Assembly: GCA_951799405.1 (NCBI GenBank)
Contig: OX637359.1
Span: 2,352,201 to 2,416,200 of the forward strand
Direction of reading: 5' to 3'
From: Agapetus fuscipes
Lineage: Eukaryota > Arthropoda > Insecta > Trichoptera > Glossosomatidae
DNA length: 64,000 nucleotides
Position numbers and translations under genes: made by a program. Below the pieces are notes generated by a model. It was given only the letters and a program-made list of their open reading frames with translations. It searched no databases and was not told the DNA's origin. This document shows positions 7,588 to 49,800 of the stretch, piece after piece (position 1 is the first letter of the stretch; each line of letters opens with the position of its first letter).

Positions 7588-7969
7588 CATTGAGGTATAT
7601 ATACTAGAGACTGAACGTTGCTCGAAACACGTAGGACCCTGCAGTAGGTCAAAAGTCTTACTCGAGAAAAACCCGATTTTGAGGCTCGTCAGTCTCACGC
7701 AGACTTACACAGCGAGCGGACATGACAGGTGGTAAAACATACTGCTATAAATGACTAAATATTGTGATTGGAGTTTTCAAACACCTTTGTTTGTGAACTT
7801 GATCAATTATACAACATGCATAAGTTAAAAACATAAATATATACATAATAAAAATAATCTAATTAACGTCCAGATCCCGCCCATATCTTCCCCCCTCCTT
7901 TCAATTTTAGCCCCGCCCCCTCCCACATAAATTGCATGTCTTGTTATTAGTTTTAAGTTTAGTATATAA

Positions 7970-8009
7970 GAAACTGAAGATGGAGAATGATCTCCGAAAA
8001 CGTTTTTTC
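7970..8009 (+). ncRNA. hammerhead ribozyme-like core (single)
   Basis: GAAA, CTGAAGA at 7974-7980, one spacer T, stem II GGAGA/TCTCC with loop ATGA (7982-7995), GAAA, minimal stem III AACGTT, then TTTC pairing with the leading GAAA. Type I layout. It is followed by the tail ggattaaaacaaagtttttt shared with other copies in the window. Activity not known. Confidence 0.6.
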
Positions 8010-8416
8010 ATAAAATAAATACTCATAGTGGATTAAAACAAAGTTTTTTCATTGAAGTGTTCTAAAAATTATTTATTAATATTTTTTGAATCAAATAGTT
8101 AAAAACACATGGGATCCTAGCACAAATTAATTATCAAAACAATTGTTAAACTTTAAATATTTCGTCGCTGTGAAGTCAAACCGACATATCGAACGCATAA
8201 GTAGAGCTACATATTTTTCCCCCTAAAAGTAGGGAAAAAAATATTAATAAAAATACGAAAGAACGTAAGAGCTTTATTTTGTATGTCAAAAATGTTTATT
8301 AACTCATGCACTGTTTGCAATTTTAAAAATATTACGTGTGATATAATTTATTTTTGTTAAAAAAAAAGTTTTTCTTAAATCTATTTTCATTAATTTGACA
8401 TAGACTTTGTCAACGA

Positions 8417-8842
8417 CGTGACCATGTGGAAAGCACCGGTTCCCATAGATCACCGAAGTTAAGCAACATTGGGCGCGGACAGTATTTGGATGGGTAACCG
8501 CTCAGGTACACCGCGTGTCGTTGGCATCTTGGACCGGTCCGTAGTCCGTAGTGGCAACACTTCGGACTCGTAAATGGAAGGTTGTGGATTTGGATTCGGA
8601 TCCCGGCGGAGCACAAAAATATACCATATATATTTCGAATGTGCTCTTCGCTGGGTTGAAAAATTCATAAACCTTTACCAATGACCGGTCACTGAAAGGT
8701 CCATCCAACCTTACAACAACTGGGTCTTGCTTGAGAATTGGCGCTTTCTACAGCGACGACCAAGCTCGCAGAGTGCTCTTGAGGTGTGATACACACAAAA
8801 ACAGCGCTCACCAAATAAATCATCCTAATATTATTATTATTA
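8417..8842 (+). mobile_element. SINE: 5S rRNA-like block + family A
   Basis: 8417-8532 resembles 5S rRNA (gatcaccgaagttaagcaac, ggatgggtaaccgctcaggt, accgcgtgtcgttggc). A tRNA-like head follows directly (B-box GGATTCGGATCC), then the A body, ending in caccaaataaatcatcctaa and an ATT-repeat tail. Same order at 44534 and 50095. Confidence 0.8.
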
Positions 8843-9829: not shown

Positions 9830-10735
9830 TAATCAGTTAAATCCTCACTTATACCTCCTCCTCTCATCATACATACATAACATCACAGTATAATATCAAC
9901 GTTTCAGCAGTGGTGTCGCATCGCGCATTTAAATTAATCTTAAAAAGTGAATCACGATGCCCATCCGAGGGCAAACAAGTGCTGACAAGGTGGTGGAGGG
10001 GCTCGACAGCCTTACCTCCATCATCTTGGAATTAAAAGAACAAATTAACACTCAAAATAGTCTAATTTGTGAGTTAAGTGCCAGACTCATCAAACTCGAA
10101 ATCGGCATAGAGACCCAGGGGGTCCCAAACTGAATCAAAGGGGCCGCAAAATTACAGTCAAGCAGCTGCCAAAAAGGATCACCCATCGGAGCAGCTGCAG
10201 CAACAGAAGCAGCCACTGCGGCAACAGAGGCAGCAGCTGGACCAACAGAAGCTGCTACCGCAGCAACACAAACAGCCAGCGCAGCAACAGAAGCAGCCAG
10301 CTCAGCAGCAAAAGCAGCCAGCGCAACAACAAAAGCAGCCAGCGCAACAACAAAAGCAGCCAGCGCAACAACTAAAGCAGCCAGTGCAACAACAAAAGCA
10401 GCCAGCGCAACAACAGAAGCAGCTATTGCAAAAGCGGCCGTCTCTGGATCAGCCGCTCCAACAACAGCCTAATAAAGGGCAGTGGAAAACTGTCCAATGA
10501 CGGAAACCAAGACAGAAAATGCTGCAGGGTGTCCTATCGGTGGACAACCTGAAAGCAGCACCCAAGATTAGGGTTCTCCACGTTTGGAGGTTCCTGAAAG
10601 AGACAACTGCACAAGACATTGTGCAGCACGTTAAGAAGGTCACCGGCGTAGAGGTGGAGGCAACGCCTTTAGTGAACAGGGGTGGATACGCTTCATTTAA
10701 GGTGATTCTTCATGAAGAACTCACTTATTTGGAAT
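9830..10735 (+). pseudogene. LINE ORF1 (Gag-like), frameshifted
   Basis: The ATG at 9957 opens MPIRGQTSADKVVEGLDSLT with a leucine-rich, coiled-coil-like stretch to 10132. A five-G run then shifts the frame. The next frame is Gln-rich with about ten QQQKQPA-type repeats (10195-10440). A further frame starts at 10519 and holds IRVLHVWRFLKETTAQDI ... YASFKVILHEE, the pattern of the nucleic-acid-binding region of jockey/R1-type ORF1 proteins. Two breaks, and the 3' part is lost at a SINE junction (10735). Promoterless relic of an autonomous LINE; no endonuclease or RT follows. Confidence 0.65.
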
Positions 10736-11260
10736 AGAATAACGTTGGTTCGATCCCCGCTTGGGTGACTTTAACTTTGACCCTGGTTCAACAGATGTTA
10801 TTGGGTAATTAATAATTAATATAAACAATAATGAATTATTAATTGATAATATTAATACCTATCAATGACCTATTATTAATTGATGAGGCATTCACTTTGT
10901 AACCTTTCATTTTTAAAAAATTAAAATTTAAAATAAAAAACAAATTGTATTAGGTTACGGGGCGAGTAAAATTCAATAATGTACGACCGGTTTCGGAAAC
11001 AATGATTCCATCGTCAGGTACAAAATATTAGTACCTGAGTAGTAATATTTTGTACCTGACGATGGAAACATTGTTTCCGAAACCGGTCGTACATTATTGA
11101 TTTTACTCGCCCCGTAACCTAATACAATTTGTTTTTTATTTGTAATTTTAATTTTTTATATTAATACCTGTTTCTGGCCAGATAGAATAGGTTAGTGAAT
11201 GGCATTCCTCTTCACAAATCTATTTTTTAATTTAAAAAATATATATGGTGGTAACAAAAT
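10736..11260 (+). mobile_element. SINE family C, split by a ribozyme foldback
   Basis: ggttcgatccccgcttgggt then gttcaacagatgttattggg, matching 31365-31420 and the reverse copy at 13850-13990. Continuation at 11158 (attaatacctgtttctggcc, gcattcctcttcacaaatct) matches 31480-31535. The foldback 10861-11157 sits between. Confidence 0.65.
10861..11157. mobile_element. hammerhead-ribozyme foldback, 12-bp TSD
   Basis: Near-perfect palindrome inserted into a family C SINE and flanked by ATATTAATACCT at 10849-10860 and 11158-11169. Right arm, plus strand: GTAC, CTGACGA (11056-11062), spacer T, stem II GGAAAC/GTTTCC with loop ATT, GAAA, CCGGTC, then GTAC, which pairs with the leading GTAC. The left arm carries the same core on the minus strand (10981-11020), with one stem II mismatch. 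Core elements match a type I hammerhead with GUC at the cleavage site. Confidence 0.75.
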
Positions 11261-11261
11261 T

Positions 11262-11487
11262 GGTATGCGGCTGACCACCCATGCTGTAAAAATGGTTCCT
11301 TTGCCAATGTCACCCCTGTCTCAGGGAAGGATGGCAAGAGTTGCAGGGTGTATGTCCATTTGAGATTTGGTTTTTATGTTGTAGGTTCACATGAGGCATG
11401 TGCAAGCGCAAACTTGTTCGTGTCTGGTTGTGAGAATGCATGTAATGTGAATCTCCAATGTAACATATTATATTTGCAACTTAGATT
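11262..11487 (+). repeat. T repeat copy
   Basis: ttggtatgcggctgaccacc, then ggttcacatgaggcatgtgc, ending aacttagattacattagatt with AGATT tail units. Inserted within the left arm of the large inverted repeat; TATA is present on both sides. Confidence 0.75.
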
Positions 11488-11834
11488 ACATTAGATTAGA
11501 TATAAAAATTTCACACTTCGTCCCCACGACTTTTTGGCCAACGACATTTCGGTCAAAGACAAATCGGTCAACGACAACCCGTCCAAAGACAACTCGGCCA
11601 TTGATAAATCGGTCACACGACACTTCGTCCACACGACTTTTCGGCCAACGACATTTCGGCCCAAGACAAATCGGTAGACAAATTGTAAAAAATTTCATAA
11701 GCCTTAAAAATTGACAACTATATTTTATTCTTGTATTGAAAATATAAAAAATAAATCAGGGAATTGCACTCGACTTTCTTTCCTCAATGAAGTCCCAAAA
11801 TGTGTGTAAAACTAGAACCATGGACTAGCTTGTA

Positions 11835-22200: not shown

Positions 22201-25200
22201 TGTGATATCTGAGGGCTAGAAATTATTTTAACGGAAATAGACATTATATATCTGTTTTATTGATTGTAGAGGCATTAACTTTGTTCATCTTAAGAGATAA
22301 AAAGAAAAACCACATTGTATTCGATTACTGTGAGTATTTTATTTAATTAATACCACAACCGGTTTCGCAAACATCCGTTCGCATCATCAGGTGGATAATT
22401 AATTTATCCACCTGATGATGCGAACGGATGTTTGCGAAACCGGTTGTGGTATTAATTAAATAAAATACTCACAGTAATCGAATACAATGTGGTTTTTCTT
22501 TTTATCTCATTGTTCACGCCAAAGCGCCATCTTTCGATCATTCCTCAAATTAACCTCCTTATCCTGGAACTTCACCATTATTATCCAAAATCTGTTTTAC
22601 CGACCCACATATTGCCACTTGCATTTTGATCTTGGAGCAAGAAGGTTGTCGATAAAACCTTCGTGGGTGAAATTCGAAAACGTCGTGAATTTAACCGTTG
22701 TGCAGTCCATAGCAAGTTTGGACATTTGTGTGTGTTTTGTGTCCTCAAGGGCCGTGTGGTTTGAGCGCGCCTTTTGGACAACGGGAGCCGACTGCAGTCG
22801 ATCCAAGCTGGATGACGGGAGACACGAGGTAGGTGGCAAATTCCTTGGGTCCTTCCTTCCTTTTGTCCCGATCGAGAGTTTGGAGCAGTTGCGCCCCCAA
22901 TCGTCGTCGTCGAGACTCCTCAGATCATTTCTCGCATTGAGGAGCCCTCGAAAGTAATTAAGATACTCAAATAAGAAACATCGGCGCAGTGGCGTGCGTG
23001 AGATTCGCTCGCGCGTGCAGCGTGCGCATCCATTGGTCACTTCGAATCGGATATTTGTGTTATTTTGCTGTTAATTGGACAGTAAAATATTTTGGTTTCT
23101 TCATTTGGTGTACTTATTTTGAATAGTTAGTTTTTGATATAGATATTGGAATAGATTATACAGAATCGTATTTTTATATTCATAATATTAGCTTTGGGTA
23201 GATGAGATAAAATTTGTAACAATAATTCGTTGTACAGATTTAAATTTGAAGGTTGGTACTGGAGAGGTCATTTGTTTAAATTAAATTCCCTTTATATACC
23301 TAACTGTTTATGTGAATTTTTGAAATCATCAATCGGTAGGTACCTACTTGCTAATGAGGTAATAAAAATAATAGTTGTTTTGATTTGCGAATTTATTTTG
23401 ACGTTTGTTTACATAATATTCAAGGTCAAAGGAATATTATCATTCATAACAGAGTTTTTGTTTATTATTTTTCTTTTTCTTCTTTTTGATATTTTGGATT
23501 CTTGATATATACAACCAAATATGGCTAAAAAAGAAGATCAAGAATATGCTGTTCAGCTTTTACAAAGCAAACTGACGGCCATTTACGGGAGAATTCAGAG
23601 TATATTCGATCAAAGTAGGAATTTAAATAATGATCCTGTAAAAATTGATGACTTTTTGGCTAACAGTTTTACAATCGATATTCTACGTGCCGATTTCATA
23701 AACACTATTGATGAACGAAATAAACTGCTGTCGGTTTCTGCGGAGAGTGTTCCCAATTATAATTCTCTAATGTCAGTTGAAGAGTTATATACAAAAATAA
23801 AGTTCCGGGTTAATCAATTACAAACGATTAGTCCAGCTGTCGAAAAATCGGGAACTGCAAAGAAGAGATTCAATTTGCCGAAACTGGAGTTATGTAGTTT
23901 TAATGGGGAAATAGAATCGTGGCCATTATTTTATGAATCATTTCGAACTGTAGTTCATGAAAATGAGGATCTCTCTGATAGTGAGAGAATTCAATATTTG
24001 ATTGGGAAACTTTCTGGAAAAGCTCTAAACCTTTGTCATGGGATTGTACCATCGGCAGAAAACTATGTGGTATTGTGGAAAGCGCTTATTGATAAATACA
24101 ATGATAAAAGGATGTTGGCTACTTCGTATCTAGAGAAACTGTTCAAACTACCTAGCGTAGATCGTGTTGAACAGTCACCCTCAAGTTTAGAAACTTTTAT
24201 AGATGCTTTCTCGTCAAACGTCGCGGCATTGAAGCAATTACAAATTGAAAACTTGGAGGATTTTTTGCTTATTTATATTGGAAGCAAGAAGATTGGCTTC
24301 GAGACAGTGAAATCTTTTGAGTCAGAATGGAGCCAAATTTTAGGCGGTCGTATGCCTAAATGTATGGATTTCATAGAGTTCGTTAGAAAGCAAGCACAGA
24401 TACTGCAGCGTTCTCGTCAAACATTGGGTTTGACAGATCACACGCAGCCTCGTAAAGGTTCATTGTCATCGTCTTCTGTTTCACGTTCGTATAAAGCCAA
24501 CAATGTGAAATCATTTGTGAGTATTCGAGAATCGATAAAATGTTTTTTGTGTGGCCTTAAAGATCATGGACGATTGTCAGAGTGTCCAAAGTTTAAGAGA
24601 ATGAATGTTAATTGTAGATTTAACGTTGTAAAAGAAAATAGATTATGCCTGAAATGCTTAGAGCCAGGACATATGGTGCGCGAGTGCAGCAAGGAGATGA
24701 AATGCAGTGTGTGTGCACGCCCTCATAATACTCTATTGCATTTTAAGGGCGCTAGCACGCCGGTAAGGGCAACTGGTGCTAACGTTGAAGGAAATGTTGC
24801 GTTGCAGTCGCCAACCAGCAATCCTGTATCGGTGGCGTTGTGCTCTGTTGGAGAGCGCAAGATCGGGTCGGACTGGGCTTCATTTTCATCTGTACTTTTG
24901 GGTACGGCAAAGTGTACTGCTAAGAATGAAAATGGACATGTCAAAGTTATTCGAGCCATAATTGATAGCGCTTCGCAGCGTGATTTTATCACGGTGGAGT
25001 GCGCCAAGTCTTTGGCATTACCTATTGTAGCCACTAAAAATAAATTTGTTTCTGGAGTGGGAAATAGTCAAAGCAAAATAAAGGGCGTCACATCTTTGAC
25101 GATTCGATCAAGGATTGACGAAACATTTGAGCTTGAAATCGAACCGTTGGTTGTAGACACCATAACAAATAAGTTGCCAACTGCGAAAATTGATAGATCA

Positions 25201-28200
25201 CAATTGACCTATTTCGAGGGGATCGTACTTGCGGATGAGGAATATGACATACCAGCTAAGGTGGATGTCATTTTGGGAGCTGACATTTTTGCAAGAATCC
25301 TACGTGCTAAAACGGTATCGAGATCTGCCGGGGAGCCAGTAGCAGTAGAAACTGCACTCGGCTTTATAATAGTAGGAAAGGCTCCAGCCATAGAAAAGGT
25401 AGCAAACGAGGTGGAAGCCTTTCACTCAATAGACACGCTTCCCTCCGATTTAACCGAGTTCTTTAAATTAGAAGAGGTCCCCCAGATGACAAAGATCTTC
25501 ACTCCTTCCGAACAGGTCTGTGAAAAATTATATTCTCAGACCACAGTAAGAAATGCATCAGGTAGCTACACAGTAGCATTACCGTTTAAGGATAAATCGT
25601 CGAGATTAGGAGAGTCTAAAACTGTGGCAATTCGAAGATTTGAGTCTTTAGAACGAAAGCTGAATAATAATCCCACTGTAAAAATTGAATATGATCGAGT
25701 ATTCCAAGAATATTTGGATAAAAAATATATTAGGCTTGTTGAAAAGGATTGGGAAACTGAAGATTTGGGTCAAGGATACGTGATACCTCATCATGGCGTT
25801 GTACGCGCAGATAAGACAACTACCAAGTTGAGGGTAGTTTTGGACGCAAGTGCGCCTACCTCATCGGGAGTAGCATTAAATAACATTTTGCACACTGGCC
25901 CAAATTTGCAAAATGATTTAATGAAAATAGTTTTGAGATTTAGACTACTTCCTATAGCGTTAAATGCAGATATTCGGCAAATGTATTTGCAAATAAAAAT
26001 TAGAAAGGAAGATCAAAGGTTCCAGAGATTGTTTTATAGATTCGATCCAAAAGGACCTTTGCAGTTGTTCGAAATGACAAGGGTGCCATTTGGACTATGT
26101 TGCAGTCCGTATTTGGCCATTCGTACGGTGCGGCAGCTGGCAATAGATGAGCGGGATCGATTTCCGGATGCAGCAGCCGTGGCGGAATCCGACATATACA
26201 TGGATGACATAGCTACGAGTTGTAGTACTGTAGCCGAAGGGGTGAAGCTGTCAACTCAGCTTATAAACTTTTTTAATGCTGGAGGATTTGAATTGACCAA
26301 ATTCTGTAGTAATGCTCCCGAAGCATTAAAACTTGTACCGCCAGAGCGTAAAGTCACTGGCGTCGTGAAATTTGACCCAGAAGAAGATCTGAAGGTTTTA
26401 GGACTTCGGTGGGAGCCGCGAGATGATGTCTTCACATTTAGGGTAAATAGACATCCAAGAAGCTGTACAAAGCGCGGAATATTGTCTACAGTAGCTCGCA
26501 TGTGGGATGTGCTAGGTATTGTAGCACCGGTCACGCTAATGGCCAAGTTAATTATCAAGTACCTATGGACAGAAGGGATCGGATGGGATGAGACTCCGCC
26601 GTTCAGTGTCATTGAGCATTGGGAGCGTTTAGAGAGGGAATTGGTTCTTCTGGAACGTCTTCGATTGCCTCGACATATTGGAGTGGTAGTGGAGGGTTGC
26701 ATCGTATCCCTATTAGGATTTGCAGACGCTTCGGAAAAAGCCTATGGGGGAGTGGTATACATGCATGTACACTTTCCTTCGACTCGAGATTCAATTGTTC
26801 GGTTAATTTGTGCAAAATCGAGAGTAGCGCCCTCTAAAACAGTAATTTCGCTACCGAGAATGGAGTTGTGCGCGAACTTAGTTTTAGCAAAACTGATGAG
26901 ATACGTGATTGACGTATATGCCCAGAGCTGCACAATCAGTCGGATTTTGGCGTTCACTGATAGTACTGTAGCTTTGGCTTGGATCAAATCGGATCCAACA
27001 AGGTGGCAGTGTTTTGTTGGTAACAGAGTGGCAAAAATTCAGCAGTTGATCGAAGCTGATAAGTTTTACCACATTTCTGGTAAGGATAATCCTGCTGACT
27101 GCCTGTCTAGGGGGTTAACTCCCGCTCAGCTCATGGAACATCCTTTGTGGTTTGCGGGACCCGGGTTTGCAAAACTTCCATCGGAAGAATGGCCAGTTCA
27201 TCCGTTTGACCTCAAGTTGGTCGACGATGCGCCCGAGAAAAGGAGACCAGTGCTAGCCTTATTGGAAATAGAGGAAACTGAAGAAGTACATATGTTATGC
27301 GAAATGGCAGAGCGTGTTTCCTCGTGGAGTAAGCTATTAAGGATAACAGTTTACATACTAAGATTTCTGAAGAAGCTACCTAAACCCTTTCATGTGTCGC
27401 ATTTAGAGATGGCAGAAAAGGTAATTATACAGAATTTACAATCTCGACATTTTGGAAATGAAATTAAATTGTTGAATTCCGGAAAGCAAGTAAAACCCGC
27501 TTTCAGAAGGTTGAGAACTTTCCTGAAGGATGGGGTTCTAAGAGTAGGTGGACGATTATCAAATGCGAGTATAAAATATGATAATCAGCATCCAATACTT
27601 TTACCTCGTCGCGATCATGTGGTCAATCTTATTATTGATCATTGGCATCGAAGAAATCTGCACACGGGGCCTCAACTCGTAATGGCTTTGTTAAGACAGA
27701 AATATTGGATTTTATCTGCGAGAGATATAGTTAGACAGCGAATACAAAGCTGCGTCATTTGTTTCAAAGCAAAGCCCCGAAATGAGTTCCCTTTGATGGC
27801 AGATTTGCCGGAGTTTCGAGTGAGAGAAGCCAAGGCCTTCTGTCATACCGGAGTAGATTATGCAGGCCCTCTGGCTATTATCCCTTATCGGCGCCGAGGC
27901 GTCCGAAGTATCAAGGCATACATATGTCTATTCGTATGTCTTGTAACAAAGGCTGTTCATTTGGAATTGGCCCCTGATCTTAGTACCGATGCCTTTTTAA
28001 GTGCATTAAAACGATTTATTTCCAGGCGCGGACCGATAAGCGTTATATATTCCGACCGAGGTACTAATTTTGTTGGAGCCAAATCCTCATTAGATGCTAT
28101 TTATAAAATGTTGGATTCAAAGGAATTCAACGAACGATTTGCACATGAACTTCAAGAGCATCGTATTGAGTTTTGTTTCAATGTAGCCGCCGCTCCTCAT

Positions 28201-30295
28201 TTTGGAGGTATTTGGGAGGCTGGAGTACGATGCGTGAAGTCTCATTTAGCAAAGGTAGTCGGATTGCAGCTGTTAACTTACGAGGAGATGTTGACGGTGC
28301 TCGTGCAAATTGAAAGCATACTCAACTCCCGTCCATTGACAGTGTTGAGTGGAGATCCGGCTGAGCCATTAGCTCTGACGCCGGCTCATTTTCTGACTTT
28401 AACTCCATTAAAGTCCTTACCTGCGGCACCCATCACTGATGGAGGCACAAGCTTGGTCAGAAGAAAAGAAGTGTGCGACCAGTTAGTGCAGTCGTTTTGG
28501 AAGCGGTGGAGAACGGAATACCTGAACACCCTTCAGGTGAGAAAGAAATGGGATAAAGACCATAAATCGATAGAAAAGGGCTCCATCGTAATATTGGATA
28601 ATGGAACGGGCGCACCGCTGAACTGGCCAATAGGTTTTGTTCAGGAGGTTTTCCCGGGTAAGGATGGAGTTGTTCGAGTAGTAGAGGTGCGAACAAAATT
28701 CGGTACATATCGTAGACCGGTAGTTAAAGTCTATCCTCTACCAACTCAATAGATTGTTTTTTGATATGGTTTTTGCTATTTTTTATTTTTGATTTTCGTT
28801 TATTTTCGTCGTTTTCTTTGTTTGATATACGTTAAGCTACTTGTAAATATTTTCGATTCGTTGATTTAGGTTTAGATATTACAGTCCACTTGTTTCGTGT
28901 CGATATAAGTATAGTTGCAAATAGATTCGGCATCTATCTTAAATTTTTCGTTTTCGTTTTGTAATAGGTAGTTGTGAGTAGGTAAATCAGAATCGAGGGC
29001 TGCTTGATGCGGGTGGTGGTGTGGGGTGTTGAGGCAGGGATGAGCAATGTTTGAAAGAAGGGGTTCTTTCAAGCCCGGGGGGATGTTCACGCCAAAGCGC
29101 CATCTTTCGATCATTCCTCAAATTAACCTCCTTATCCTGGAACTTCACCATTATTATCCAAAATCTGTTTTACCGACCCACATATTGCCACTTGCATTTT
29201 GATCTTGGAGCAAGAAGGTTGTCGATAAAACCTTCGTGGGTGAAATTCGAAAACGTCGTGAATTTAACCGTTGTGCAGTCCATAGCAAGTTTGGACATTT
29301 GTGTGTGTTTTGTGTCCTCAAGGGCCGTGTGGTTTGAGCGCGCCTTTTGGACAACGGGAGCCGACTGCAGTCGATCCAAGCTGGATGACGGGAGACACGA
29401 GGTAGGTGGCAAATTCCTTGGGTCCTTCCTTCCTTTTGTCCCGATCGAGAGTTTGGAGCAGTTGCGCCCCCAATCGTCGTCGTCGAGACTCCTCAGATCA
29501 TTTCTCGCATTGAGGAGCCCTCGAAAGTAATTAAGATACTCAAATAAGAAACATCGGCGCAGTGGCGTGCGTGAGATTCGCTCGCGCGTGCAGCGTGCGC
29601 ATCCACTCATTATATATCTGTTTCAACTTATTTATGAAAATGGTCCTTAGTAAGAAAGAGAACAAAGAACTGCACAGTTGCATTTCCATGTGTACAAAAA
29701 AACTCTGGCGAATGTAAATATATTTCTAGAAAGGTGCGTGCATACTATGTCTGAACCAGTCTGAACATAAACGCATCTTATGATCGATAAAATTGATGAA
29801 TTTTAAAGAAAAAAGGCATTATTTTAAGACGTTGCATGTGCTATAATTGGGTGTCAGAACACAAAATGGAGAAAGTAAGAAAATATAGAATTTTCCACGT
29901 AAAAACATGTTTTCTATTACCACTGCAACGTTTGACAGGACTGAAACAATTGTGGTCCATAGCATGTATCATTGCTGTAAGTATGTTTCTGCTCCTCTAT
30001 GTAATAAATAACTCAATGGTATTTGCTAATTTTTTTGTACGGCAAGGCTCTCCCTTTTTATAATACTGTAGATGTATGTGTTTTAATCTTTGTTACAGCT
30101 CCCTACATTTACACAGTGATCGACGAAGAGATTTCCAACTTTCCCTACATCGCCCTCGGGGAGCTGAACTGTGCGACTGTTGAAGCGTTGCAAGGCCCGC
30201 TGCACATCATAGAGAAGGACCAGGCCATACAACTGAGGACGTCTCTGTGCTGCAGCATTCCAGACTGGAACTATTTAGTGGAAATGACACTGTGA
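19079..30295 (+). CDS. BTB-BACK-kelch (KLHL-type) protein gene, three exons
   Basis: Exons 19079-19252, 19936-20947 and 30099-30295 join in phases 0 and 1 to a 460-aa protein with no internal stop. BTB: YDVVLCVDDKKMFVEKKALM ... SSYFEVMFGGNFRE across exons 1-2, then FQINQKCLKTFEIDCIKKNF. A BACK-like helical stretch follows, then a C-terminal kelch region with RRHFGCIVHKDDLFLIGGVG and EELYVLAES. Family members usually act as substrate adaptors for Cullin-3 ubiquitin ligases. Here the kelch part is short (about three to four recognisable blades against the usual six), so the protein is shorter than typical KLHLs (~570-600 aa). Intron 2 is 9.15 kb and holds a complete BEL element. A KLHL10-like insect paralog is possible but unproven. 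Confidence 0.75.
19500..19730 (+). repeat. T repeat copy in kelch intron 1
   Basis: ttgacttataggttggtatg, an internal loss of the gtcacccctg block, then ggttcacatgcggcatgtgc, ending cttagattagattag. Confidence 0.75.
19936..20947 (+). CDS. kelch gene exon 2 (BTB C-half, BACK, kelch)
   Basis: Acceptor gattctttcag|GTGCCATTT, donor CATAGTG|gtaagta. 337 codons plus one base, open throughout. The exon starts with VPFGLLKFAIDLIYRKTQF, the end of a BTB domain, and carries the GG-doublet kelch blade LFLIGGVGN. Confidence 0.8.
21125..21345 (+). repeat. T repeat copy
   Basis: gacttacaggttagtatgac, caatgtcacccctgtttcag, ending atctttgcaactaagattag. An internal deletion has removed the central catgcggcatg. 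Confidence 0.65.
21548..21843. mobile_element. 296-bp MITE with TSD ATA
   Basis: Ends ggggccgtccatatattacg and, inverted, ggggctgtccatatattacg, flanked by ATA at 21545-21547 and 21844-21846. C-rich and A/T-rich interior without coding frame. Confidence 0.75.
21872..22078 (+). mobile_element. SINE family A, 5'-truncated
   Basis: Starts at gctcttcgctgggttgaaaa and runs to caccgaataaatcatcctaa with an ATT tail. The tRNA-like head is missing. Confidence 0.7.
22200..22257 (+). repeat. old repeat, left part (continues at 29608)
   Basis: gctagaaattattttaacgg ... cattatatatctgttt matches 45395-45442 and 33870-33910. The rest of this copy lies beyond the nested foldback and BEL element, at 29608-30060. 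Confidence 0.65.
22258..22507. mobile_element. hammerhead-ribozyme foldback, 16-bp TSD
   Basis: Palindrome 22294-22508 preceded by 36 bp of other sequence. The 16-bp CATTATATATCTGTTT at 22242-22257 recurs at 29608-29623, that is, across the BEL insertion. Right arm: CCAC, CTGATGA (22412-22418), spacer T, stem II GCGAAC/GTTTGC with loop GGAT, GAAA (22436-22439), CCGGTT, then GTGG pairing with CCAC. The left arm carries the identical core on the minus strand. Confidence 0.75.
22511..23032 (+). repeat. BEL copy 1, 5' LTR
   Basis: TGTTCACGCCAAAGCGCC to GCGTGCGCATCCA. It differs from copy 2 LTRs by at least two substitutions (aagggcc/aagagcc, ccttttgg/cctattgg) and one indel (actcaaat/actccaaat). 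Confidence 0.95.
23034..23050 (+). other. BEL copy 1 primer-binding site
   Basis: TGGTCACTTCGAATCGG starts one base after the LTR. TGG is the complement of a tRNA CCA end. The primer tRNA was not identified. The matching site in copy 2 has a different sequence. Confidence 0.7.
23521..28752 (+). CDS. BEL/Pao Gag-Pol polyprotein, 1743 aa
   Basis: A single frame from ATG 23521. Rough residues: Gag with FNGEIESWPLFYESF (~126); zinc knuckles CFLCGLKDHGRLSEC (~340) and CLKCLEPGHMVREC (~376); aspartic protease IIDSASQ (~481); reverse transcriptase with RVVLDASAP, LNADIRQMYLQI and the catalytic YMDD (~893); RNase H with GFADASEKAYGGV (~1066) and FTDSTVALAWI; integrase with HHCC zinc finger (HWHRRNLHTGP ... 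CVICF), catalytic D in GVDYAGP (~1443), D in YSDRGTNF (~1510) and E in GGIWEAGV (~1563); a C-terminal DUF5641-like tail. All catalytic motifs are present and length is normal for the family. Confidence 0.95.
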   Translation: MAKKEDQEYAVQLLQSKLTAIYGRIQSIFDQSRNLNNDPVKIDDFLANSFTIDILRADFINTIDERNKLLSVSAESVPNYNSLMSVEELYTKIKFRVNQLQTISPAVEKSGTAKKRFNLPKLELCSFNGEIESWPLFYESFRTVVHENEDLSDSERIQYLIGKLSGKALNLCHGIVPSAENYVVLWKALIDKYNDKRMLATSYLEKLFKLPSVDRVEQSPSSLETFIDAFSSNVAALKQLQIENLEDFLLIYIGSKKIGFETVKSFESEWSQILGGRMPKCMDFIEFVRKQAQILQRSRQTLGLTDHTQPRKGSLSSSSVSRSYKANNVKSFVSIRESIKCFLCGLKDHGRLSECPKFKRMNVNCRFNVVKENRLCLKCLEPGHMVRECSKEMKCSVCARPHNTLLHFKGASTPVRATGANVEGNVALQSPTSNPVSVALCSVGERKIGSDWASFSSVLLGTAKCTAKNENGHVKVIRAIIDSASQRDFITVECAKSLALPIVATKNKFVSGVGNSQSKIKGVTSLTIRSRIDETFELEIEPLVVDTITNKLPTAKIDRSQLTYFEGIVLADEEYDIPAKVDVILGADIFARILRAKTVSRSAGEPVAVETALGFIIVGKAPAIEKVANEVEAFHSIDTLPSDLTEFFKLEEVPQMTKIFTPSEQVCEKLYSQTTVRNASGSYTVALPFKDKSSRLGESKTVAIRRFESLERKLNNNPTVKIEYDRVFQEYLDKKYIRLVEKDWETEDLGQGYVIPHHGVVRADKTTTKLRVVLDASAPTSSGVALNNILHTGPNLQNDLMKIVLRFRLLPIALNADIRQMYLQIKIRKEDQRFQRLFYRFDPKGPLQLFEMTRVPFGLCCSPYLAIRTVRQLAIDERDRFPDAAAVAESDIYMDDIATSCSTVAEGVKLSTQLINFFNAGGFELTKFCSNAPEALKLVPPERKVTGVVKFDPEEDLKVLGLRWEPRDDVFTFRVNRHPRSCTKRGILSTVARMWDVLGIVAPVTLMAKLIIKYLWTEGIGWDETPPFSVIEHWERLERELVLLERLRLPRHIGVVVEGCIVSLLGFADASEKAYGGVVYMHVHFPSTRDSIVRLICAKSRVAPSKTVISLPRMELCANLVLAKLMRYVIDVYAQSCTISRILAFTDSTVALAWIKSDPTRWQCFVGNRVAKIQQLIEADKFYHISGKDNPADCLSRGLTPAQLMEHPLWFAGPGFAKLPSEEWPVHPFDLKLVDDAPEKRRPVLALLEIEETEEVHMLCEMAERVSSWSKLLRITVYILRFLKKLPKPFHVSHLEMAEKVIIQNLQSRHFGNEIKLLNSGKQVKPAFRRLRTFLKDGVLRVGGRLSNASIKYDNQHPILLPRRDHVVNLIIDHWHRRNLHTGPQLVMALLRQKYWILSARDIVRQRIQSCVICFKAKPRNEFPLMADLPEFRVREAKAFCHTGVDYAGPLAIIPYRRRGVRSIKAYICLFVCLVTKAVHLELAPDLSTDAFLSALKRFISRRGPISVIYSDRGTNFVGAKSSLDAIYKMLDSKEFNERFAHELQEHRIEFCFNVAAAPHFGGIWEAGVRCVKSHLAKVVGLQLLTYEEMLTVLVQIESILNSRPLTVLSGDPAEPLALTPAHFLTLTPLKSLPAAPITDGGTSLVRRKEVCDQLVQSFWKRWRTEYLNTLQVRKKWDKDHKSIEKGSIVILDNGTGAPLNWPIGFVQEVFPGKDGVVRVVEVRTKFGTYRRPVVKVYPLPTQ
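29084..29605 (+). repeat. BEL copy 1, 3' LTR
   Basis: Starts TGTTCACG directly after the G-run cccggggggat and ends GCGCATCCA before CTCAT. No difference from the 5' LTR was noticed on reading. Confidence 0.95.
29611..30060 (+). repeat. old repeat, right part
   Basis: gtttcaacttatttatgaaa, gaactgcacagttgcatttc, ataattgggtgtcagaacac match 45437-45860 at ~75-80% by eye, and more weakly 33900-34000 and 34330-34500. It ends just before kelch exon 3. Confidence 0.65.
30099..30295 (+). CDS. kelch gene exon 3
   Basis: Acceptor tttgttacag|CTCCCTAC in phase with exon 2. The exon adds APYIYTVIDEEISNFPYIAL ... DWNYLVEMTL and ends at TGA 30293-30295. The compatible phase and protein-like composition support it; no family motif is strong here. 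Confidence 0.65.
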
Positions 30296-31289: not shown

Positions 31290-31545
31290 TGTCGGGGTTA
31301 TAGCCGCGGGAGCTAAGAGGGCTGATCTTTCTAGCGTGTTTCGAATGGAACAACGCTGGTTCGATCCCCGCTTGGGTCACATGACTTTAACTTTGACCCT
31401 GGTTCAACAGATGTTATTGGGTAATTATTATTTAATAATTCATTAATAATAAACAATAATGAATTATTAAATGATGATATTAATACCTGTTTCTGGCCAG
31501 GAAAAATAGGTTGGTGAATTGCATTCCTCTTCACAAATCTATTTT
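31290..31545 (+). mobile_element. SINE family C
   Basis: Degraded head, B-box region ggttcgatccccgcttgggt, body gaccctggttcaacagatgt, ending gcattcctcttcacaaatct and long A/T runs. Confidence 0.65.
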
Positions 31546-31623
31546 TTTTTTAAAAAAAAAAATAAAAAAAAATAAAAAAAAAAAAAATAGCGCTCACCAA
31601 ATAAATCATCCTAATATTATTAT

Positions 31624-31837
31624 AAATATTTAAAAATATAAATGGAAAAACATTGTTTTAATTCACTTTATTTTATTTGTTTATGCTCGAATATTTTCGC
31701 CTAATGAGGCATTTTCAAAAATATTCGAGCATAAACAAATAAAATAAAGTGAATTAAAACAATGTTTTTCCATTTATATTTTTAAATATTTATAAAAATG
31801 GACTTTCACTGTGTTAACAGATCAACACTAAAAAATA
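31624..31837. mobile_element. hammerhead-derived foldback (decayed)
   Basis: Palindrome 31622-31792 with conserved outer blocks (tgaattaaaacaatgttttt). On the minus strand, TTGAAAA, T, stem GCCT/AGGC with loop CATT, then GAAA is a mutated hammerhead core in which CTGAAGA has decayed. TAATATTATTAT flanks the insertion at 31612-31623 and 31838-31849, though this is simple sequence. Confidence 0.55.
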
Positions 31838-31854
31838 TAATATTATTATTATCT

Positions 31855-37800: not shown

Positions 37801-40800
37801 CGAGGCCTCTAAAGATGTAGGACTGAGTATGAACCTGGCAAAAACCAAAGTAATGGGCACACAAAACTTTCAAATTAGGATTGAGGGCAGCAATATCGAG
37901 GATGTCCAAGAATACATATACCTAGGTCACAGTATCCGAATAGATAAGAAAAACCAGACTGCTGAGCTTAGAAGAAGGGTTGGATTAAGCTGGGCTGCAT
38001 TCGGAAAAATGGGATATATTTTAAAAAACCGGAAAATACCCATAAACCTGAAAAAGAAGGTGTATGAACTATGTGTGTTGCCAGTAGCTACATATGGCCT
38101 AGAAACAGCAACTCTCACAAAACAAAGTGCCGAGAAGTTAAGAACGACCCAAAGAGCCATGGAAAGAGCCATGTTAGGACTCTCCCTTAGAGATAGAGTC
38201 AGAAACGAAACGGTGAGAGAAAATACAAAGGTCACTGACATAATCCACCGTGTAATGACTCAGAAATGGCAGTGGGCGGGACATGTAGCCAGAAGTCCGG
38301 ATGACAAATGGACAAAAAGAATGCTGACTTGGAGACCTCGAACGACGAAGAGAAGTGTAGGGCGACTACAGTTGAGATGGAAGGATGACCTGAACCGGCA
38401 TGCTGGCGCGACCTGGACGCAGATTGCACAAGACAGGTCGGTATGGAAACAGATGGAGGAGGCCTTCGTCCAGGAGTGGACGGAAATGGGCTAAAGAAGA
38501 AGAAGAAGAAGATGTGCAAAACTTGAATTTTCAATAAGATGATGTTCCTTGACTTATAGGTTGGTATGAGGCTAACCAGTAACCACCCATTCTGTAAAAA
38601 AATATTCGCTTTGAAGATGTCACCCCAGTTTCAGGGAAGGTCGGATAGACTTGCAGGGCGCTTGTGTTCATTTGAGATTCGGCTTTTGTTGTTGCAAGTC
38701 TACATGCAGCATGTGTAAGCGCGAACTTATACGTGTCTGTTTATGGGAATGTATTTAAAATGGATCTCAAATGTAATATATATCTTTGCAACTGAGATTG
38801 TAAATTATAGATATGGATAACTGAGTCATATATTTCCAAAATTTGCTATCTCCGCATGCATTTGAGAAATTTACATTTGACATGTTTGCGCTGAAGGAAT
38901 GGGGAACTAACCGTTGAACAACTTGTTGTTTTTATACAATAAAATAAAAATTGCTTTGTTTTAATTCACATGAGCTTATTTTTGGACACGACCAGTTTCG
39001 GGAGAAGCAGTAGGTACCTCCCATCTTCAGGTGTAAATAGAAACTAACACAGAATACAGAATTACGAAGCAAGGATTTCCATTTCCATTTCCATTTCCAT
39101 TTACGAAGCAAGGATTACGAAGCAAGGAAATCCTTGCTTCGTAATTCTGTATTCTGTGTTAGTTTCTATTTACACCTGAAGATGGGAGGTACTGCTTCTC
39201 CCGAAACTGGTCTTGTCCAAAAATAAACTCATGTGAATTAAAACAAAGCAATTTTTATTTTATTGTATTCAAATGAACTTTCACGAAGTAACTGCTGAAA
39301 ATCTAGATAATATTGTTGTTTTTAGTTCAGATAATATAGTGGGTATAGGAGCAATTTTAATATAACTCCATGGGAGCAACTAAAAGATTATATATACACG
39401 GGTAGGTACTTATCCCATTACAAAATTATTAGTCATTTTTCTATTTTCCATAAAATTCAAAATTTAAGTTTGATTGGAGCCATCGTTAGCACTTCAGTTG
39501 GTTTCAAATGAGTTATTGTAAAGGAAGGGGAGATAATATTTATTCTGAAATGTCTTTGCCTGTACTCTATGCACGCGCCTGAAACACGTAGACACACAAT
39601 CATAAGTAAACATACTCGTACACAGACACACATTTCTAACATTATGTACCTTAAAACGTTGATGAATCTATGTCCCCATCTGATGTCGCTGGGCAGATAT
39701 GATGTTTTACTTTGACTCATCTGGCCTGTGAGTCTGGAGGCTCCCGTAAATGTGATCACAATTTCAAATCTGAAAAACCACATTCCTCCAATTACAATCT
39801 TTGTTTTGCACGTCAATAAAGAAATCGCACCATCTCTTCGGTACACCTCCAAAGAGATGGCGTGGTAGCTGGCAGCCTGGATCACACGGGGAAGTAGCAC
39901 ATATAGATCTTTCGGATCTATGAAAGGACGAATAAGGAAATGTTGTGGTAAATTTGTAGGCATAAGTACCTAGTAGCAAAAAATATCAATAATTGAAAAT
40001 TTGACCACCCATACTGTAAAAAAATGGTTCACTTTGCCAATGTCACTCCTGCTTCAGGGACGGTCGGTCGAGTTGCAGGGCTTATGTTCATTTGAGATTG
40101 GGTTTTTTATATTGTAGGTCCACATACGGCATGTGTAAGCGTGAAATTGTGCATGTCTGCTTGTGGGAATGCATTTAATATGAATCTCAAATGATACATA
40201 TCTTTGCAGCTTAGATTTAGATGCAAGACTTTTAACAGTTCTGCACACATTGAAACTTGAAAAATTCTGATTCAGAATTCATTTTGGGGAACTTTGGTCA
40301 TAAATTGTGAAGCCACATGACAAGTTGGTAGAGCGCTTGCTTTTAATACCAGACGACCTTGACTTATAGGTTGGTATGCGGCTGACCACCCATGCTGTAA
40401 GAATGGTTCACTTTGCCAATGTCACCCCTGTCTCAGGGAAGGACGGCAAGAGTTGCAGGGTATATGTCCATTTGAAGTTTGATTTTTATGTTGAAGGTTC
40501 ACATGCGGCATGTGCAAGCGCGAACTTGTACGTGTCTGGTTGTGAAAATGCATGTAATGTGAGACTCCAATGTAACATATCTTTGCAACTTAGATTAGAT
40601 TAGACCAGGGTTCAAAAAAGCGCTAGATAGAAAAAATATTTTTGAATATTTTAATCTAGAAAAGGTGTTGGTGAAATCAGACTTAAGATAAGGGATGAGA
40701 GAGAACTCAGTGACATATTTTTACACTTATTTCTTATACAAACAATAGTACGAATATATAAAGGGAATGAGAAATGAAAGGATCCCACGCATCGCTGTTA

Positions 40801-43800: not shown

Positions 43801-46800
43801 CTGATCTTGGCATAGACAATGCAGGTCATCCCTCCAATCAGCGCGTAGCCTGCAATCACCTGTTGACAAAAAAACGGCAATGCTTTCTTGGGTTGAATTC
43901 TATTAGCTTCTCGCTTCTGAATATTCCGGCTATATGAATGCCCCGAGTAGGTACGGAATACTTTTTCAAGCACATTTTTCAAAACATTTATTGATTTCCT
44001 GCCTTAATTGATTGACGATGCTTAAAACTATGTGAGCAGTCACATGTATTAGTTATTCAAGAAGAAAAATAACAATGGCTTAGCACATATTTCCACTTGC
44101 AGACTTTTGAATTCTTGAACACAGATGTCAGGGATAAGTTGAATGATGTCTATGATTGGCAGTTGCACTGTATGCAAGTTTACACTTGACGCTAATGCAT
44201 GTCACCCGCAGTTGAAGGGTTAAACTTTATAGAACTTTTAAAATTCTAATAAAACACTGTTTTATTTTCACTTTATGACAATACTTTCCATTGTTTGAAT
44301 GATTTTTCAGTTCCATAGAACGGCACAGTGACAAAACAACACATGACAGAGCATCACATGATAAATCATCACATGATAGAACATCACATGACAGAACATC
44401 ACATGACAGAACATCACATGACAGAACATCACATGACAGAACATCACATGACAGAACATCACATGACAGAACATCACATGATAGATCATCACATGATAGA
44501 ACATCACATGACAAAACATCACAAACAACACAAGCGACCATACCATGTTGAAAGCACCGGTTCTCGTCCGATCACCGAAGTTAAGCAACATTGGGTGCAG
44601 ACAGTACTTGGATGGGTGACCGCTTGGGAACACTGCGTGTCGTTGGCATTTCTTGGACCGGTCCAAAGACCAGTGGCAACACTTCGGACTCGTAAATGCA
44701 AGGTTGTGGATTTGAATCCCGGCGGAGCACAGAAAATATACCAATTTATAAATATGCTCTTTGCTAGGTTGAATAATTCATAAAAAACCTTTATCAAAGA
44801 CCGGTCACTAAAAAAAAAATGTTTATCCAGCGTTACAGCAACTGGGTCTTGCTTGAGTATTGGCACTTTGAAGCGACGACCAAGCTCGTAAACACCTCTG
44901 CGGCTACAACAAGTGTCATAGACCCCTAGAGTCTTTGAAATCTAGGGAGTCTCTCGCACAGGATTTCTTAAAAAAAAAAAAAAATTGTGAGTTTTTGTCA
45001 TATGATGTCTCTGTGTTGTTTTGTCATTGTGATGTTTTGTTATATGCTCGACGATACCAGCGACGTTTTAAATAAACAATCTTTAATTTAAAAGATTTAT
45101 TTTACTTACCTCCATAACCATTATGAATATGACTTCTGGACACTCCTCAGTCGGTGATTTTTCCCCATATCCAATGGAAACCTGAAAATACCAGTTAGCT
45201 GTCAAGGTTACTAAAGCATGTAGCAGTCTGTCTTAATTGTTAAATCACGACCAAATATTAATTTCAACGCAAACTAATTTTACCTAGGTAAGTGACCATG
45301 TCAGATATACCTATTAACTTTTATAATTGGAAGGCCAGTATGCAAACATGTGCTTAAACAGTCAGTTAGTACCATGGACTTATAATATATGTGGAATAGA
45401 AATTATTTTAACAAAAATATACATTAAGTATACATCTGTTTCAACCTACTTCCAAAAATGGTCATTAGTAAGACAGAGAAGAAAGAACTGCACAGTTGCG
45501 TTTCCATGTGTACAAATAACTTGGGCGAATGTAAAAATGATTCTTGAAAGGTGGCAGCATTGCCGCGTGTGGCAGTATTGTAGAAGCAGTCCGAACGTAG
45601 ACGCATGCGGTATAAATCTTACGATGGATAAATTAACGAATTTTAAAGGAAAAAGGCATTAGGGCATGTGTTGTAATTGAGTGTCAAGCCACAAAATGGA
45701 GAAAGCAAGAAAACATAAAAGTTGACACGTAAAAACATGCTTTGTATGACTACATGACTGCACAACTGCAACGTTTGACAGGACAGAGGCGAAAGTGGTA
45801 GATAGTATGTATCAATGCAGTAAGTTACCGCTCCTCTATGTTATTACTCAATGGTTGGTACCCTTTCCTAGTTAATTTTTGTAACATTGAAATTTATATT
45901 CCTTCATGATATAGACATCTATTGAGCAGACGAGAAAGTTATTTTTTATGAAGTTTTGAAAACGCAGCAAAGCTGCACATATAGTGTAACTTCTTTCTGC
46001 GTAATACACGAAAGGTTTCGCATGTTCCGAGTGGAACATATTTATTTTTAAGGGTAACGCTTACGCCAACCATTTCAGTCAAAGTGGGGGTTTCCCAGCT
46101 TCCGAGGTGGCTGGTACTCATTTATTCTGAAGGATGAGTAAACCTTGCAGGTATTTTATTTTGGGTTTTTGAAATAAACACCGAAACGGGAAATCATTTC
46201 TGACACCCTCGGTGGGACACGGACCCAAGCTCTCGGCATGGAATGCAAGCACTCTACCAACTGAGCTATCGACCGGACTTACGGAGCTGCTTTTGACTTA
46301 TTCTTAGTATTCATGAGTGGAACCTATTACTTTTTACAGGTAAATGGAGCAGCTTCACTTAACTACTTTTTTTTTTTTAAGAAATTCTGTGCGGGAGACT
46401 CCCTAGATTCTAGAGACTCCAGGGGTCTATGACACTTGTTGTAGTGCCGCAGAGGTGTTAGCCTGAAAGTATGATTTTCACTGTTCCCTAGGTGATAGGC
46501 TCTCATATCTTGTTTGTTTCGAAGTTGGCAATTGTCCGGTCGATAGCTCAGTTAGTAGAGTGCTTGCAATCCATGTTGCGAGTTCGTGTTTGAATCCCAC
46601 ATAGAGTGCTGGAAATGATTTCCTGTTTCGGTGTTTACTTCAAACCCAAAAAAAAATATCAGCACGGTTTACTCAGCCTTCACCGACTTGCCTTGACCGG
46701 TCCGTAGTCTAGTGGTTAACACTTCTGACTGGTAAATGGAAGGTTGTGGGTTTGAATCCCGGCAGAGTACACAAAAAAATGTACCATTTATATTTTCAAA

Positions 46801-49800
46801 TATGCTCTGCACTCGACCGGTCACTAAATGTACACCCAGCCTTACAGCAACTAGTTCTTGCTTGAGAATTGTCGATTCTACAGCGACGACCAAGCTCGAA
46901 GAGGGCTCTTGAGGTGTGATTCACAAAAAAACAGCGCTCACCAAATAAATCATCCTAATAATATAATATTATTATTCACAAGAAACGAGTACCAGCCCCT
47001 GGGGAGCTGGGAAACCACCACTTCAAGTGCAGTGGTTGGCGTAAGGCCGGCCCCCTTGCCTGTAAAAATAAAAAGGTTCCACTTGTAACATGCGAAACCC
47101 TTCGATAATAATAATGATAACGCGGCAAGAAGTTACACTATATGTATAACTTAGTTGCGTTGTTGCGTTGCCCTTACAATAATTTTTTCACTGCAATTTG
47201 AAGTTCGCTCACTTGAGTCTCCACGGAGAATCCGAAGATCCCCGTGAAGGAGCGGCCGTCTGTGATGCAAAGCTTGCTGTCGGGGTTGCCGTCCATGTCC
47301 CCGTTGGCGTAGGAGGACACGTAGAACATGAGCCCGAAGGCCAGCCACAGGGCGAAGTTGCAGATGGCGAAGAGGAAGATCAGCCAGCGCCAGCGACATT
47401 CAATCTGAAAGAAGAAGAAAAGATTTTAAAGAAACCTTCACTTTCAATGCATGGTCGGCGCTACTCACGCAACTAAGCTACACATAATATAGTGACCGGT
47501 CCGTAGTCCAGTGGCAACACTTCGGACTCGTAAATGCAAGGTTGTGGATTCGGATCCCGGGGGAGCACAAAAAATATACCATTTATATTTCCAAATATGC
47601 TCTTTGCTGGGTTGAAAAAATTCATAAAGCCTTTACCAAAGACCGGTCACTAAAGGTCCATCCAGCCTTACAGGTTACAGCAACTAGGTCTTGCTTGAGA
47701 ATTGGCGCTTTGTAGCGACGACCAAGCTCGTACACCTTTGCAAAACTGTAACAAGTGTCATAGACACCTAGAGTCTCTAGAATCTAGGGAGTCTCCCACA
47801 CAGGATTTCTTAAAAAAAACAACTTATTGCCTGCGTTATCTCCGAAGGGGAAGGCGATTCGGGACGTATTTATTTTTTACGGGTAAGGGGGCCGACCACT
47901 TTCAGTTAAAGTGGGGGTTTCCCAGCTCCCGGGGGGGGGGGGGCTGGTTCTCATTTCTTGTGAAGGCTGAGTACACCTTGAGATCGAACCCTTGCTCTCG
48001 GCATGGAATGCAAGCATTCTACCAATTGAGCTATCGACATTTTTACGAGCTTGGTCGTCGTCGCTACAAAGCGCCAATTCTCAAGCAAGACCCAGTTGCT
48101 GTAAGGCTGGATGGACCTTTTAGTGACCGGTCATTGGTAAAGGTTTGTGAATATTTCAACCCAGCGAAGAGCAAATTTTAAAATGTAATTGGTATATTTT
48201 TTGTGCTCCATAGACAGATTCGAACCCACAACCTTCCATTCAGAGTCCGAAGTGTTATCACTGAACTACGGACCGGTCTTTTTCTCTTTTTTAATCATTT
48301 TAGATTGAAGTCGCGTCACAGTTTCTTTCTTTCACTGTTTAACGATATATTTTGTTTGCTCTTTTTTCTCATATATTTCATCACATATTTTTCATGTTTC
48401 TACATTTTTGTAATTTTCTATGTACTTTTCTATTGATGTATTATTTTTTTATGGCTGGTCATGTATTGCACCCTCCACATGACTAAGCTGGAATAAACGC
48501 ATCTTATTATTATTATTATTATTTAGCTCTGTGCACCCTTTGACTACGGAGCCGGCGGGGAAGAGACTGCGCCTATGGAATTTGGAGTGACCTGTAAACT
48601 TTGTGCAGCCAAGCGAGAGCCTCCCACCTGGACAGGATCTTGAGTGGCCTGTGTGGAGAGCACTCAACAGGCTAAGAACAAGTGTTGGCAGAGCTCATTG
48701 TAACATGATGACCTGGGGAATCTTGCATCAGGATGACACCACGCTCTGCGAATGCGGAGCCCAACAGTCCATGGATCATCTTGGGATCTGTCCGGCCTAT
48801 CCAACAAGCTGCTCACTGGCCGACCTAATGGAGGGTACCTAATGATGGAGAGGTGGAGGGTGCCCGATAGCGTCTGACTTGAAGAAGATTTCATATTATG
48901 GAACCTGTTCTTTTTCTTCCGACGTTTTATTTTCACGAGAAGAAAGTAATTTCAAGGATATTTTTAGTTTGTACAAAAAACAACTTATTCAATCAATTAT
49001 TGTAAAATGATCATACTTTCACAGTTTTAGTTTGACACGTAATTTTAATTTAAAAAAAAAAGTATATATTGCTGAAATATTTTCGCTTTCAAAGACATCT
49101 TCAGGAGCACTGATATTTGTAACAAAAAACTAATGTCAAACAAAGAATCATAGAAGAACACAATCTAATCTAATATAATCTAAGTTCATTTGATTTAAAT
49201 CTAAGTTGCAAAGATATGTATCATTTGAGATTCATATTAAATGCATTCCCACAAGCAGACACGCATAATTTCGCGCTCACACATGCCGCATGTGGACCTA
49301 CAATAAAAAAACCCAATCTCGAATGAACATAAGCCCTGCAACTCTTGCCGACCTTCCCTGAAACAGGGGTGACATTCGTAAAGTGAACCATTTTTACAGT
49401 ATGGGTGGTCAGCCTCATACCAACCTATAAGTCAAGGAATATTTGAGATTAATATTAAATGCATTCCCACAAGCAGACACAAATAATGCCGCATGTGGAC
49501 TTACAATATAAAAACCCAAACTCAAATGAACATAAGCCCTCCAACTCTTGACGACCTTTCCTGAAACAGGGGTGACATTGGCAAAGTGGACCATATTTTT
49601 ACAAGGAATATACGTAATTTTTTACTTACCAATGTTGTGACGAGGTCATTCATGAACTTGCCGGCTCTCCTGTCGATGTTTTGCCTCAAGGGCACATTGG
49701 TATCCCCATTCCTAAACACCACTCTCTTCCAGCGCTTCGACCGCAATCCGCCATGCTCGGGAGAAGGTCTAAAAATGTATAAAACTGATGATGATAAGGA

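Follow-up and report, generated by a model that had tools for sequence, protein, structure and literature searches.

A hammerhead-bearing palindrome in Agapetus fuscipes as a probable twin-primed insertion of a Penelope-like element leader

We analysed a 64,000-nt stretch of Agapetus fuscipes DNA (the window) and focused on E1, a palindromic insertion at 10861-11157. The results indicate that E1 very probably arose when leader RNA from a Penelope-like element (PLE) was reverse-transcribed from both target strands and the two cDNAs were joined. Two starts, two stops, one tail, a flush duplication and a centre of its own could be read from the copies, which also gave a leader of about 120 nt and two reverse transcription (RT) start sites close to the beginning of the ORF, separated by about 33-45 nt. 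From these we infer the enzyme, the strand order and the joining. The PLE protein, with its telomerase-like RT and GIY-YIG endonuclease, would cut both target strands, mostly 12-14 nt apart, and both target 3' ends would prime cDNA on the PLE RNA. One primer would start at the inner site and give an untailed arm, and the other would start at the outer site and give a tailed arm. Synthesis of each cDNA would proceed in the direction of the RNA 5' end, and the free cDNA ends would be joined. A symmetrical palindrome (E1, E2) would form where both cDNAs ran all the way to that end, and an asymmetrical palindrome (E5) where one of them stopped early; the hammerhead would be carried along.

We also lean, with some caution, towards the broader view that PLEs generally insert by site-specific twin priming, in which the two target strands prime on the same kind of RNA at two different start sites and two-armed insertions carry exactly one tail. 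If true, this would account at once for the optional tail, the ribozyme palindromes and the inverted copies, and the hammerhead would lie 15-17 nt from the 5' end of the transcript and be uncut at insertion. Each copy preserves within a single DNA segment where the two first strands began and stopped, how they were joined and which target bases were duplicated. The model can therefore be assessed by counting in any PLE-rich genome, so that an insertion mechanism that is still poorly understood becomes testable from genomic sequence. It also means that ribozyme-bearing genomic palindromes are not necessarily functional double ribozymes.

Structure of E1 and of the other insertions in the window

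E1 is a near-perfect palindrome inside a SINE. Its arms pair at 10969-11034/11039-11104 (95%) and at 10914-10972/11100-11158 (97%), and the predicted RNA fold reached -180.3 kcal/mol, compared with -51.6 for shuffles (z -27). The palindrome is flanked by a 12-bp target site duplication (TSD), ATATTAATACCT, at 10849-10860 and 11158-11169, identified by flank comparison and from an empty SINE paralogue; by chance, at least 12 matching bases occurred in 0.74% of 5000 random 50 x 50 flank pairs from the window. The paralogue (31339-31564, + strand) spans the insertion site, and its two matches to the E1 flanks overlap by exactly the 12-bp TSD. These results confirm the palindrome, the duplication and the insertion into a SINE, all of which the first-pass annotation had proposed.

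From left to right, E1 consists of a tail, a tailed arm, a junction and an untailed arm. The tail is found on the left arm only (10861-10913, - strand; minus-strand reading MKGYKVNASSINNR..., peptide MKGYKVNASSIN), and its outermost 10 nt (10861-10870) were absent in most copies at other sites. The left arm, a putative cDNA of a PLE-type leader, spans 10914-11030 with its sense on the minus strand; the filler GTACCTGAG (11031-11039) lies between the two cDNA ends, and the right, untailed cDNA arm spans 11040-11157 on the + strand. The surroundings of E1 (positions 10461-11557 of the window) recur at L009, which lies on the same contig at a distance of about 0.75 Mb; the two stretches are 100% identical across 1097 bp.

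Besides E1, the window holds E2, E3, E5 and E6, each with flank duplications of 12-16 nt. The left TSD of E2, CATTATATATCTGTTT, lies at 22242-22257, followed by a tailed left arm (22258-22398, -; tail peptide MNKVNASTIN; core 22357-22390, -) and an untailed right arm (22404-22508, +; core 22412-22445, +), with 105 nt that are 100% complementary; the right TSD copy lies at 29608-29623, beyond a BEL/Pao insertion. This LTR element (22511-29605; ORF 23506-28752) is inserted where E2 ends on the right, with a 5-bp duplication, CTCAT, and its family label was given from the appearance of the ORF. E3 has the TSD TTGTTGTTTTTA at 38923-38934 and 39313-39324, an untailed left arm (38935-39080, -; core 38990-39030, -) and a tailed right arm (39126-39312, +; core 39176-39212, +) with the tail MNFHEVTAENLDN and the peptide MNFHEVTAENL. 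E6 is a palindrome (31624-31837) truncated within the ribozyme region, with the TSD TAATATTATTAT at 31612-31623 and 31838-31849 and a tailed right arm, MDFHCVNRSTLKN, whose tail peptide is MDFHCVNRSTL. E5 has the TSD AATGTATAAAACTG at 49774-49787 and 50048-50061, a left arm that is untailed and 5'-truncated (49788-49854, -) and a tailed right arm (49870-50047, +; core 49881-49924, +; tail peptide ...SEAGHESLKTLI). A further leader copy, E4 (7834-8096, +; core 7974-8005), occurs in a single orientation, with a possible 11-nt TSD at 7823 and 8097. Matches to 5S rRNA at 8409-8526 and 44530-44648 look like heads of dispersed repeats.

In E1, E2, E3, E5 and E6, the cores, where present, face outwards, indicating that the palindrome centre corresponds to the 5' side of the RNA and the ends next to the target to its 3' side. 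The extra tail was found on one arm of each of these five palindromes, and the untailed arm ended just ahead of an ATG in E1, E2, E3 and E6.

Hammerhead cores and relation to Penelope-like elements

The predicted core of E1, CTGACGATGGAAACATTGTTTCCGAAACCGGTC, lies at 11056-11088 on the + strand (11052-11092 with stem I), with the predicted cut after 11088, and its partner lies at 10985-11017 on the - strand (10981-11021 with stem I). Stem I is GTAC/GTAC and stem II is GGAAAC/GTTTCC, while the minus-strand copy reads GGAATC and has one stem II mismatch. We searched the window with a core pattern. The results showed five matches, against 0.11 expected, which represent four cores, a pair each in E1 and E3; further cores of similar kind were found in E2, E4 and E5. 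Among 13 distinct cores from the window and the PLE loci, stem III was self-complementary in 13/13, and one extra nucleotide stood ahead of stem II in 13/13. The pattern used for these cores asked for four base pairs in stem II and for A..U at stem III, and left self-complementarity free. Stem I pairing summed to 37 bp, compared with 14.1 in permutations (0/5000 as high), with only 0-2 bp in five of the cores. The CUGANGA...GAA motif, stems I and II and the NUH site were all found, as in a type I hammerhead with a minimal stem III.

Isolated cores showed no significant folding (8 examined, z -0.3 to -1.9), and the case for a ribozyme therefore rests on complementarity across families. The Rfam hammerhead search, which the first-pass annotation had named as a check, returned no match at gathering score and none at E up to 10; this may reflect the near-absent stem III. 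The hammerhead core that the first-pass annotation proposed for E1 is supported as a predicted ribozyme core, and each arm carries one. Rfam microRNA matches on the hairpins were below gathering scores and were taken as hairpin artefacts, and a motif scan of viral contigs gave 0 matches. Small PLE hammerhead variants, attributed to Lunse 2017, reportedly cleave as dimers. They resemble the present cores in their reduced, self-complementary stem III, and the 13 cores would fit such hammerheads.

The relation to PLEs was assessed from leaders and ORFs. The genome of the window (618 Mb) gave 55 scored matches to P0009, a PLE protein found using a rough query, and 54 scored matches to the ORF of locus L075. 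The E3 leader, core included, was 81% identical over about 195 nt to leaders directly before the PLE ORFs at L145-L148 (4/8 further loci fetched), and these ORFs begin MNFHEVTAKNLDN, a start to be compared with the E3 tail given above. The E5 leader and tail matched the PLE loci L065, L068, L070 and L076 at about 80% over 174-180 nt. At L068 and L070, the ORF start was almost identical to the E5 tail peptide, with MDSTSLSSSSEAGHESLKTLI in E5 matching METSSSSTSSEAGHESLKTLI at L068. The L075 ORF (MNFHSV..) was preceded by E4- and E6-like leaders, and the L081 ORF by an E4-like leader. In 35 PLE loci and 8 further leaders, we found no E1 or E2 leader followed by an ORF; E1 and E2 were linked to PLEs through alignment with the other leaders and through the tail peptide.

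Pfam RVT_1 was detected in 3/3 ORFs scanned, and RT is absent from the copies in the window. The GIY-YIG motif (GVYKI...YIG..) was visible by eye in 3/3 ORFs, and Pfam listed no GIY-YIG domain at E 0.01. In the PLE source loci the hammerhead sits in the leader near the ORF, and an optional tail at one end, bounded by two RT start sites, was found as in PLEs. The first-pass annotation had pointed to PLEs, and this link is supported by the E3-, E4-, E5- and E6-type leaders that precede PLE ORFs and by RVT_1. Judged from these alignments, the window palindromes are probably copies of PLE leaders.

Start sites, tails and origin of the palindromes

Copies of E5, E2 and E3 were searched with tailed-arm queries, and 40 copies of each, ranked by likeness, were scored; this ranking favours young, tailed copies and would miss tail-free E2, E3 and E5 insertions, and all copy counts come from one genome. 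An adjoining opposite-strand arm was found in 26/40 E5, 24/40 E2 and 15/40 E3 copies. The results showed that the outer ends of these 65 second arms were near-fixed and the inner ends variable. The outer end lay at 143-147 in 23/26 E5 copies (outliers 86, 136 and 140), with inner ends spread from 1 to 114. In E2, where the outer ends were blurrier than in E5, it lay at 97-115 in 23/24 (13 at 105-109; outlier 66), and in E3 at 116-125 in 14/15 by hand count (outlier 103). The outer start site was reached by 0/65 second arms, the furthest of which extended about 10 nt beyond the inner site. In E5, a TSD of at least 9 nt was flush with both outer ends in 18/21 copies (the window's included) and not in 3/21. 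At C11:10771680-10772463, four same-strand E2 leaders, repeating every 184 nt, form a short tandem array with ribozyme cores; an inverted copy lies alongside and was excluded from the 24 E2 second arms.

These ends bear on a snap-back origin, in which a target-primed cDNA would fold at its end and copy itself into the second arm. The short spacers (4 nt in E1, 5 nt in E2) and the 7-bp hairpin at the E5 centre (CTTTGAC-TCA-GTCAAAG) would suit such an origin. However, snap-back predicts a variable outer end and an inner turn-round, the opposite of what E5 showed, and it should sometimes copy the tail, whereas no second arm reached the outer site. We therefore consider it very unlikely.

No second arm was listed for 14/40 E5, 16/40 E2 and 25/40 E3 copies, nor for 17/40 copies in a tail-free E1 census. 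That census, with categories assigned by hand, divided 40 scored copies into 12 SINE composites, 10 independent palindromes, 1 inward pair and 17 single copies. On reading, six of the 17 (L083, L085, L091, L093, L094 and L099) showed a second arm, with the tail on one arm, and L083 was a thirteenth SINE-borne copy. The other 11 remain single-armed, indicating that palindromes are one outcome among several. At L100, two E1 arms face inwards and are probably two separate insertions.

One-tailed arrangements were also found in further copies. In 8/8 newly fetched E1 palindromes obtained with the tail-free query, one arm extended to at least 152 (tail) and the other ended at 105-140, with the inner site at about 121; the untailed arm entered the tail region in L124 (to 129) and L126 (to 140), where no TSD was found. 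A flush TSD was present in 4/8 (L123, L125, L127 and L128), and that of L122 leaves 26 nt. We found inverted arms of at least 50 bp in 16/30 PLE loci and of at least 40 bp in 2/5, and used the seven with a clear TSD together with L069. These seven larger PLE copies (L055, L056, L058, L068, L071, L076 and L080) had one tail each (7/7); L069 was also one-tailed, although here the TSD consists of a TA repeat.

To return to E1, the whole 297-bp unit gave 1813 first-look candidates, and 40 copies were scored. Twelve of the 40, including the window's, lie within a common SINE flank and have one centre in common; they evidently spread together with the SINE or through duplication. Three of them (L013, L017 and L018) carry this centre in inverted orientation, which resembles the outcome of recombination between the arms; the centre of L017 also differs by one substitution. 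Excluding the 12 SINE-borne copies and L021 (a duplicate of L020) left an independent set of 27 copies with unrelated flanks. The centres of these copies differed, with L040 and L045, joined by an identical minimal junction, as the only exception. Arm variants agreed within a copy: 37 both-arm cells were counted, compared with a permuted mean of 10.3 and maximum of 23 (0/10000), beside 28 one-arm cells, in columns 1-91. These columns were chosen after a first count, in which the AT-rich 3' ends contributed many one-arm differences, had given 73 both-arm and 155 one-arm cells. A copy's own partner arm was nearest or tied for only 23/54 arms. A flush TSD of at least 9 nt was found in 17/27 copies, reaching at least 12 nt in 14, and none was flush in 10/27. 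The junction filler was 0-30 nt long in 24 parsed junctions, and 4 copies were unparsable. With filler of at least 6 nt, 5/17 junctions (L031, L033, L039, L041 and E1) gave p < 0.02 against shuffled sequence and 12/17 did not, which is only suggestive of templating.

Since the centres differ and the arms are concordant at unrelated sites, each E1 palindrome appears to have been made afresh at its own insertion, and the second ribozyme would therefore be a second cDNA copy of one leader. The first-pass annotation had instead classed E1 as a foldback element, which would be a MITE-like or retrozyme-like palindrome with ribozymes on both strands, copied and inserted as a unit. Such an element would be compatible with the 40 scored copies of the 297-bp unit, many with identical outer boundaries, and with the centre shared by the 12 SINE-flanked copies (inverted in three). 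It is at odds with the 27 unrelated-flank copies and with the varying length of the E5, E2 and E3 second arms; arm conversion with centre decay would mimic part of the pattern, but not near-fixed outer ends combined with variable inner ends. We regard a mobile foldback unit as highly improbable and prefer the joining of two cDNAs at each insertion.

The other end of the copied RNA was examined from the arm ends. The longest arms often ended at an AGT that lies 15-17 nt upstream of the core (AGTAATATTTTGTAC in E1, AGTATTAATTTATCCAC in E2, AGTTTCTATTTACAC in E3 and AGTCTAAGTACAAGCC in E5). Some copies reach beyond AGT upstream, indicating that AGT is a preferred and not the sole end. The AGT start (TCAGT in E1 and E5, TTAGT in E2 and E3) resembles the insect initiator motif. 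Relative to the predicted cut, 51/65 second arms ran past and 14/65 stopped short, with 0/65 ending within 2 nt and 1/65 within 5 nt, so the reverse-transcribed RNAs were, on this reading of the sequences, probably uncut at the hammerhead. This is in line with an anole PLE for which, in the accessible text of the enzyme study, ribozyme cleavage was dispensable in vitro (PMC11167929). The least likely reading of all is that hammerheads on both strands yield circular or multimeric RNA as the mobile form: the pairing of stem I (37 bp vs 14.1, 0/5000) and stem III (13/13) and one E2-type tandem array with 184-nt spacing (C11:10771766-10772463) would favour it, but the full-length E1 transcript is predicted as a single hairpin with both cores buried, the second arms ignore the predicted cut as just described, and Rfam gave no hammerhead match at gathering score or at E up to 10.

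Comparison with known systems

PLEs, their tails, their hammerheads and their inverted copies are already known. In L1 twin priming, two target-primed cDNAs in opposite orientation are joined mid-insert; the present palindromes differ in that both cDNAs would start at near-fixed, distinct RNA positions. The one-tail rule was not found in the open-access papers searched.

Among the closest known systems is the anole PLE protein (Poseidon, Anolis). In vitro it cleaves both target strands and extends both, and the tail is delimited by two internal start sites (PMC11167929, accessible text). Poseidon resembles the present elements in having a hammerhead next to the ORF start and an optional tail between two RT starts; an ATG overlaps the core in E1-E4 (CTGANG-ATG), and in PAc the start codon follows nucleotides C3 and G8 (PMC11167929, accessible text). 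The same text gives no start-site difference between strands in vitro, which counts against strand-specific starts, and reports neither palindromic products nor a rule of different start sites for the two strands; the later insertion steps were left for validation (PMC11167929).

In Drosophila virilis, inverted Penelope fragments lie at most 100 bp apart in introns, with one predicted hairpin, and the available portion of that report presents them without an analysis of mechanism, tail, TSD or ribozyme (PMC1431729). Metazoan retrozymes, as far as the accessible part of their description goes, are likewise non-autonomous retroelements with type I hammerheads, but they have tandem repeats and circular RNAs (PMC7229834), whereas E1 has a single inverted pair and thus lacks the direct-repeat hammerheads of a retrozyme. 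Pseudo-LTR-type direct repeats were found in PLE source loci, for example L048, L050-L052, L068, L070 and L075, and none in E1. Head-to-tail PLE arrays with long open frames were also observed at C9:17696719, C15:8323904, C21:9918180 and C68:89.
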